A stretch of DNA of 64,000 nucleotides, from positions 31,428 through 95,427 of the IMG/VR virus record IMGVR_UViG_3300042564_005059. One strand, given 5' to 3'. The position numbers and the translations under genes were made by a program. Positions 39,031 through 39,279 of the stretch are shown piece after piece; the first letter of the stretch is position 1, and each line of letters opens with the position of its first letter. Source of the stretch: a virus. The notes below the pieces were generated by a model. That model did not search any database, was not told the origin of the DNA, and was given only the letters and a program-made list of their open reading frames with translations.

Positions 39031-39279
39031 ACACGTTACACGCCCACACACACGTTACACGCACACACACACGTTACACGCATACACACGCATATACACA
39101 CACACACACACACACACACACGTTACACGCATACACACGTTACACGCATACACACGCATACACACGTTACACGCATACACACACGTTACACGCATACACA
39201 CACGTTACACGCATACACACGTTACACGCATACACGTTACACGCATACACGTTACACGCATACACGTTACACGCATACG
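39031..39279. repeat. Tandem array, about 12 copies of a CGTTACACGCATACACA-type unit
   Basis: The core CGTTACACGC recurs about 12 times, with ACACA spacers of changing length, in 250 nt. A pure (AC)n tract of about 24 nt interrupts it near 39097-39120. The last copies are closely spaced (ACGCATACACGTTAC). No ORF. This is a candidate for a replication or protein-binding site, or a recombination-prone satellite. Confidence 0.8.

Follow-up and report, generated by a model that had tools for sequence, protein, structure and literature searches.

What does an array of short repeats do between two genes of a large phage? The array in question lies in a window of 64,000 nucleotides, corresponding to bases 31428-95427 of a 95-kb virus record, and was originally predicted to be an iteron-type replication origin or a protein-loading site. 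The phage of the window (below, the window phage) was compared with three relatives, i.e. G001 (IMGVR_UViG_3300032268_000832, a 306-kb record), G006 (67 kb) and G005 (87 kb).

The phage and its predicted host

The G001 record covers most of the window, in reversed orientation, with 85-99% identity. Since G001 encodes a large terminase of the T4 type and the major capsid protein Gp23, the window phage was assigned as a fragment of a T4-superfamily jumbo phage. Most genes located between about 40 kb and the end of the window are preceded by a promoter of the form TTTG...TATATCTTTG. These promoters match TAnnTTTG, the -7 box of flavobacteria (PMC9723704), which suggests that the host belongs to the Bacteroidetes.

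Anatomy of the array locus

In the direction of transcription (minus strand), the locus runs from the end of a DUF932 gene through a terminator, a hairpin region, a near-palindrome, array 2, array 1, an AT tract, a promoter and an inverted repeat to a gene at 38336-38896 (gene 38336). The distinguished features, by window coordinate, are as follows.

38336-38896, minus strand: gene encoding a 186-aa protein, with an ATG start, downstream of array 1
38930-38940, minus strand: inverted repeat GTCAAAAAGAC at the predicted transcript start, a candidate operator
38945-38972, minus strand: predicted sigma-A type promoter of gene 38336 (TTG, 17 nt, TATATTTG, i.e. TAnnTTTG; consensus from PMC9723704)
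38958-39028, no strand assigned: tract of 96% AT between array 1 and the promoter
39029-39278, minus strand: array 1, TATGCGTGTAACG(TG)n units, reading CACGTTACACGCATA on the plus strand; 12 cores, spacings of 15-49 bp, 94% alternating
39283-39495, minus strand: array 2, AATAAATTAAACCACGTG-type units that resemble the A-rich leaders of small genes
39485-39645, minus strand: conserved non-coding block with a terminator (39593-39619), the GGTATATTGATACC hairpin region and a palindromic element
39501-39515, minus strand: near-palindromic element GTACACTTTTGTGTC, a variant of a dispersed element found upstream of several genes
39641-40558, minus strand: gene encoding a DUF932-domain protein, upstream of array 1
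40732-40755, minus strand: second TATGCGT site (L2), with a hairpin ACGCATAC...GTATGCGT, upstream of the DUF932 gene

Array 1 is composed of direct repeats of one word, with 12 exact copies of GTTACACGC and 12 of TATGCGTGT, and it contains 10 exact copies of TTACACGCAT. For GTTACACGC, a first-order Markov model built on array 1 itself predicted 0.2 copies on average and, across 2000 samples, never more than 4. The GC content of the array is 0.48, versus about 0.30 in its surroundings. It shares a single gene-free interval of 744 bp (38897-39640) with array 2, which adjoins it and is unrelated in sequence; this interval separates the DUF932 gene from gene 38336, both of which are on the same strand. 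The predicted array of about 12 copies, richer in GC and placed in a gene-free zone, was therefore confirmed, and array 2 is an addition to that description.

The array had also been placed exactly where gene organization, strand and promoter type change. This proved to be off by about 0.7-1.2 kb: the convergent strand change, with terminators at 37880-37906 and 38302-38328, is located at 37878-38335, to the left of gene 38336, so the array does not sit exactly at the boundary. Moreover, gene 38336 has the same strand and promoter type as the genes to its right. As for the single core copies said to occur near dispersed elements, the copy of TTACACGCAT at 46051 is real, but matches outside the array with at most one mismatch occur at chance level (5 seen versus 4.1 expected for the whole window). 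The 46051 copy occupies the variable spacer of a promoter element, and in G001, where the gene that follows is identical, it is missing; autoregulation of the DnaA-like gene through this copy was rejected on that ground.

A coding origin of the repeats was rejected as well, because units of 10, 17, 19 and 31 bp disrupt any reading frame; the ATG at the start of array 1, which scores far below most real starts, also argues against it. Neither strand of array 1 exceeded shuffled sequences in RNA structure (z +0.6 and +3.9), and an Rfam scan of 37800-41300 gave no match at gathering score.

The TTG start listed for gene 38336, at 38947, falls within the promoter. The product of this gene could be attributed to no family and has no convincing phage or plasmid homologue; its structure model (pLDDT 35) was of no use. 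At the predicted transcript start a different inverted repeat was observed in each relative (GTCAAAAAGAC, GTTCAAAAAGAAC, ATACCAAAGAGGTAT and GTTCAAATGAAC, including L134 at about 10725-10736), and these repeats are candidate operators that differ between phages.

Turnover of the array in related phages

A homologous array is present at the same locus in the window phage, G001 and G006. The flanks of the G001 locus are about 86% identical to those of the window phage, but the units of its arrays differ (GTGTATGCGT and GCGTGTGTGCGTA; AATAAATTAAACCTCGTG and AATTAAACCTGATG). The core spacings are 15, 15, 15, 17, 19, 19, 27, 17, 49, 19 and 19 bp in the window phage and 31, 31, 103 and 13 bp in G001. 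The G006 array, of about 100 bp, also lies upstream of a sigma-A promoter, while both the downstream gene and the gene in the DUF932 position differ from those of the window phage. At this locus G005 has a small gene after the same palindromic block and lacks an array, and no array was found upstream of the distant homologues of gene 38336 (39-49% identity).

Within the core ACGTTACACGCAT, the half ACACGCATA (TATGCGTGT) is common to the window phage, G001 and G006 (12, 10 and 3 copies, respectively). The other half, ACGTTAC, is not shared (12, 0 and 1 copies), and G001 carries GTAGCG five times. What is kept across the arrays is their place, TATGCGTGT, the G+T-rich strand and the alternation of purines and pyrimidines; the ACGTTAC half, the spacing and the copy number vary.

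Such turnover of units and copy number between close relatives is typical of minisatellites, and the array may be a neutral one: a seed containing TATGCGTGT, located in a long intergenic stretch, would have expanded and contracted through slippage and unequal recombination, and alternation would be a by-product of TG/CG/TA units. Unit lengths vary both within and between phages (10, 13, 15, 17, 19 and 31 bp), at one end of array 1 the 15-bp units are identical, as in a recent expansion, and the array is missing in G005. The adjoining array 2 has turned over too, its homologue in G001 having a different word and G006 and G005 lacking it. Like contingency loci, array 1 combines tandem copies, recent identical units and a place upstream of a promoter, but it shows no evidence of expression switching. 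We regard a neutral origin as a serious possibility, if somewhat doubtful, in view of two observations.

The first concerns the hexamer TATGCG, which clusters only in the intergenic regions on either side of the DUF932-type gene and is near background elsewhere in the four records (the background of G005 and G006 was counted on parts of the record only). Array 1 and the second, paralogous site contain 12 + 2 copies in the window phage and 4 + 5 in G006; G001, which has no DUF932 gene, contains 10, and G005 contains 6, at the second site only. Judging by these counts, none of the four phages lacks a TATGCG cluster beside the position of the DUF932-type gene, be it on one side or on both. With four phages as its basis, this is the best evidence against pure neutrality. 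The hypotheses were formed after the data had been seen, and several motif definitions were tried before TATGCG.

The second observation comes from a terminase scan that gave 80 loci. Fourteen of the longer records behind these loci, together with G001, were searched for 24-bp alternating runs, and among these 15 records of relatives only G001 and G006 were positive. The runs listed fall in the array, with the exception of one in G006, which lies at the second TATGCG site.

A scan of viral contigs with the core word returned, beyond G001, just single chance matches. A scan for the shared 20-mer distinguished one further array-like tract and one match in bacterial genomes that looks like chance. 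The tract (L144:100-230) is TG/CG-rich. The viral contig that carries it measures 16.7 kb, is AT-rich and includes a groEL-like gene; the metagenome number in its record id is that of G006. As the tract was found with an array word, it is not an unbiased second case.

Alternating sequence and modelled Z-DNA propensity

Array 1 is a long, TG/CG-rich tract of alternating purines and pyrimidines, of the kind associated with Z-DNA. The alternating fraction is 0.94 in the window phage, 0.97 in G001 and 0.88 in G006 (its edges included), whereas the mean over the genome is 0.48 (sd 0.05). In G001, an uninterrupted alternating run of 103 bp is the longest in 306 kb. Phase breaks inside the arrays of the window phage and G001 occur only between GTA and ACG or between GTA and GCG, one unit of the window phage excepted.

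Between these two arrays there are 20 transitions and 4 transversions, compared with 51.6% transitions elsewhere in both genomes (binomial P about 0.001, uncorrected, the copies being not independent). Because of the dependent copies, and because turnover can purge changes, the excess is suggestive only. The arrays of the window phage and G006 display no such excess (6 to 5).

The energy of the B-Z transition was modelled in a simplified, single-run form, using the parameter values of PMC3024258. At sigma -0.06 the modelled supercoil-absorbing capacity of the array is -97 kcal/mol in the window phage and -115 kcal/mol in G001, with -67 kcal/mol for the best other 5-kb window, which makes the array the largest modelled absorber among 5-kb windows in both phages. 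Its modelled onset superhelicity is not unusual, and other short sites are predicted to flip equally early.

A possible replication origin or partition site

Phage T4 oriE comprises evenly spaced 12-nt repeats that are syntenic in close relatives and have an ill-defined role, and T4 origins sit near transcription-strand switches (PMC3016281). By analogy, TATGCGTGT repeats might bind a phage or host protein, whereupon the 96% AT tract would open and a transcript or replisome would start. The T4-type terminase and Gp23 capsid protein, the AT tract and promoters that flank the array, and the strand switch about 1 kb away fit such a role. The array resembles oriE in belonging to a T4-superfamily phage, in its direct repeats, in its synteny in close relatives (the window phage, G001 and G006), in its unclear role and in its proximity to a transcription-strand change. 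It differs in that its repeats are unevenly spaced (15-49 bp in the window phage, with other values in its relatives), change one half of the word and the copy number, alternate between purines and pyrimidines, and are absent from the locus in G005.

Plasmid iteron origins (oriV) likewise have direct repeats beside an AT-rich tract, such as that at 38958-39028, but array 1 lacks regular spacing, an adjacent Rep gene and a fully conserved word. The gene encoding a DnaA-C-like protein (45611; Pfam score 30.0, just below the cut-off of 31.5) is located 6.3 kb from the array, and its product is 100% identical in G001 although one half of the core has changed. GC skew follows gene strand and does not switch at the array, which is weak evidence on where replication starts. 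The T4 R-loop origins oriF and oriG share with the locus nearby promoters and an AT-rich tract, and RNA transcribed across the array would be rich in G and U; the minimal T4 origins, of about 100 bp, are described as consisting of a middle promoter and an unwinding element, and have no array. No MotA-type promoter was identified at the array locus.

The original prediction is supported in part: this T4-superfamily phage carries a syntenic, word-specific cluster beside a tract of 96% AT, a setting compatible with an origin or loading site. The testable iteron predictions (spacing, full core, GC skew, G005 and the identical DnaA-like protein) failed. These results weaken the case for an iteron origin, and we consider an origin-like site unlikely, though well worth keeping in view.

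It is very improbable that the array is a partition or centromere-like site for the ParB-like protein (49854-50621). It is a cluster of sites, and the ParB-like gene lies about 10 kb away, but this gene is not adjacent to the array, whose word, unlike parS, is not palindromic; parS is a palindrome. The G001 contig ends before the ParB-like gene.

A possible topological element upstream of a promoter

The reading that we tentatively favor, at less than even confidence, is that the array acts as a topological or site-cluster element upstream of a promoter. It builds on the position, homology, shared word, alternation, TATGCG clustering and modelled Z propensity documented above. A TATGCGTGT cluster with fast turnover but retained alternating DNA would be held upstream of the sigma-A promoter of gene 38336 (TTG-N17-TATATTTG). 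Negative supercoiling generated behind polymerases leaving this promoter could be taken up by the array, which would adopt a left-handed (Z) or underwound form in cells, and the adjacent 96% AT tract could melt. In this way the array may buffer supercoiling and act as an insulator, placed as it is between the terminator of the DUF932 gene and the promoter; a protein might bind to the TATGCG words, and copy number altered by repeat slippage could tune the promoter.

The topological reading is favored by the G006 array, which is still 5' of a sigma-A promoter despite a different downstream gene. It also accords with Z-DNA tracts upstream of promoters in alternation, TG/CG content and place; the array differs from these in being a phage minisatellite with phase breaks between GTA and ACG, and its Z form is modelled. 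Several points count against this reading. Alternation is what slippage of TG-rich sequence alone tends to produce, and transversions could be removed by turnover in the absence of selection. G005 and the distant homologues of gene 38336 have no array at the locus. The Z-DNA is model-based, with an ordinary predicted onset, and the comparison with G006 lacks a transition excess. The array itself is a real syntenic, fast-evolving and physically unusual element.

A bolder proposal, which we consider distinctly unlikely, is that it represents a new phage cis-element. A TATGCG cluster, shifted between the two sides of one gene and selected for left-handed, underwound DNA rather than for a fixed repeat, would, in T4-like jumbo phages whose promoters are of the Bacteroidetes type, form a supercoil sink or a site where the DNA opens for transcription or for the firing of an origin. 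If functional, the array would offer a natural test case of selection on a physical property of DNA rather than on an exact word, in a phage whose genome is of a size that permits manipulation. It bears on the role of repeat clusters such as the T4 oriE "iterons", and its relatives provide natural array-plus and array-minus variants.

Other features of the region

A strong terminator (39619-39593) follows the end of the DUF932 gene. The block at 39485-39645 (terminator, GGTATATTGATACC hairpin and GTACACTTTTGTGTCAGCGCCC) is kept in four phages although the adjacent genes have been exchanged, and the GTACACTTTTGTGTC element, followed by AGCGCCC, is likewise conserved in four phages. Upstream of the DUF932-type gene, AAAGTTATTAACAA (40640-40670) is conserved in the window phage, G006 and G005; in G006 it belongs to an inverted repeat with TTGTTAATAACTTT.

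The near-palindrome GTACACATTTGTGTC occurs on the minus strand at 41139, 43093, 46076, 51606 and 54831, upstream of some small genes. Several of the genes preceded by it have no TATATCTTTG promoter, and it possibly marks a second promoter class. The copy at 51606 lies in a gene-free stretch (51064-51657) that also includes a tRNA-Met gene (51278-51353) and may carry a further non-coding RNA.

A small ORF (38016-38273), kept in G001, encodes a protein whose proline-rich C-terminal part derives from a C-rich, partly repeated stretch. Many otherwise unrelated proteins have in common the N-terminal peptide M-K/N-x-x-I-K/R-x-x-L-R-E-x-L/F (e.g. MNTNIRNILREGLIVEA, MKNLIKQLLRENLQ and MKTQIKQILREGLTMEE). 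Its carriers are encoded in the window at 34499-36085 and 30181-32388, at the G001 loci L016:514-1725, L016:1709-3637 and L016:3675-4847, and at L004:10202-10600. Judged by its sequence, this peptide looks like a common sorting tag, which we take to be perhaps comparable to the capsid-targeting sequence of T4.
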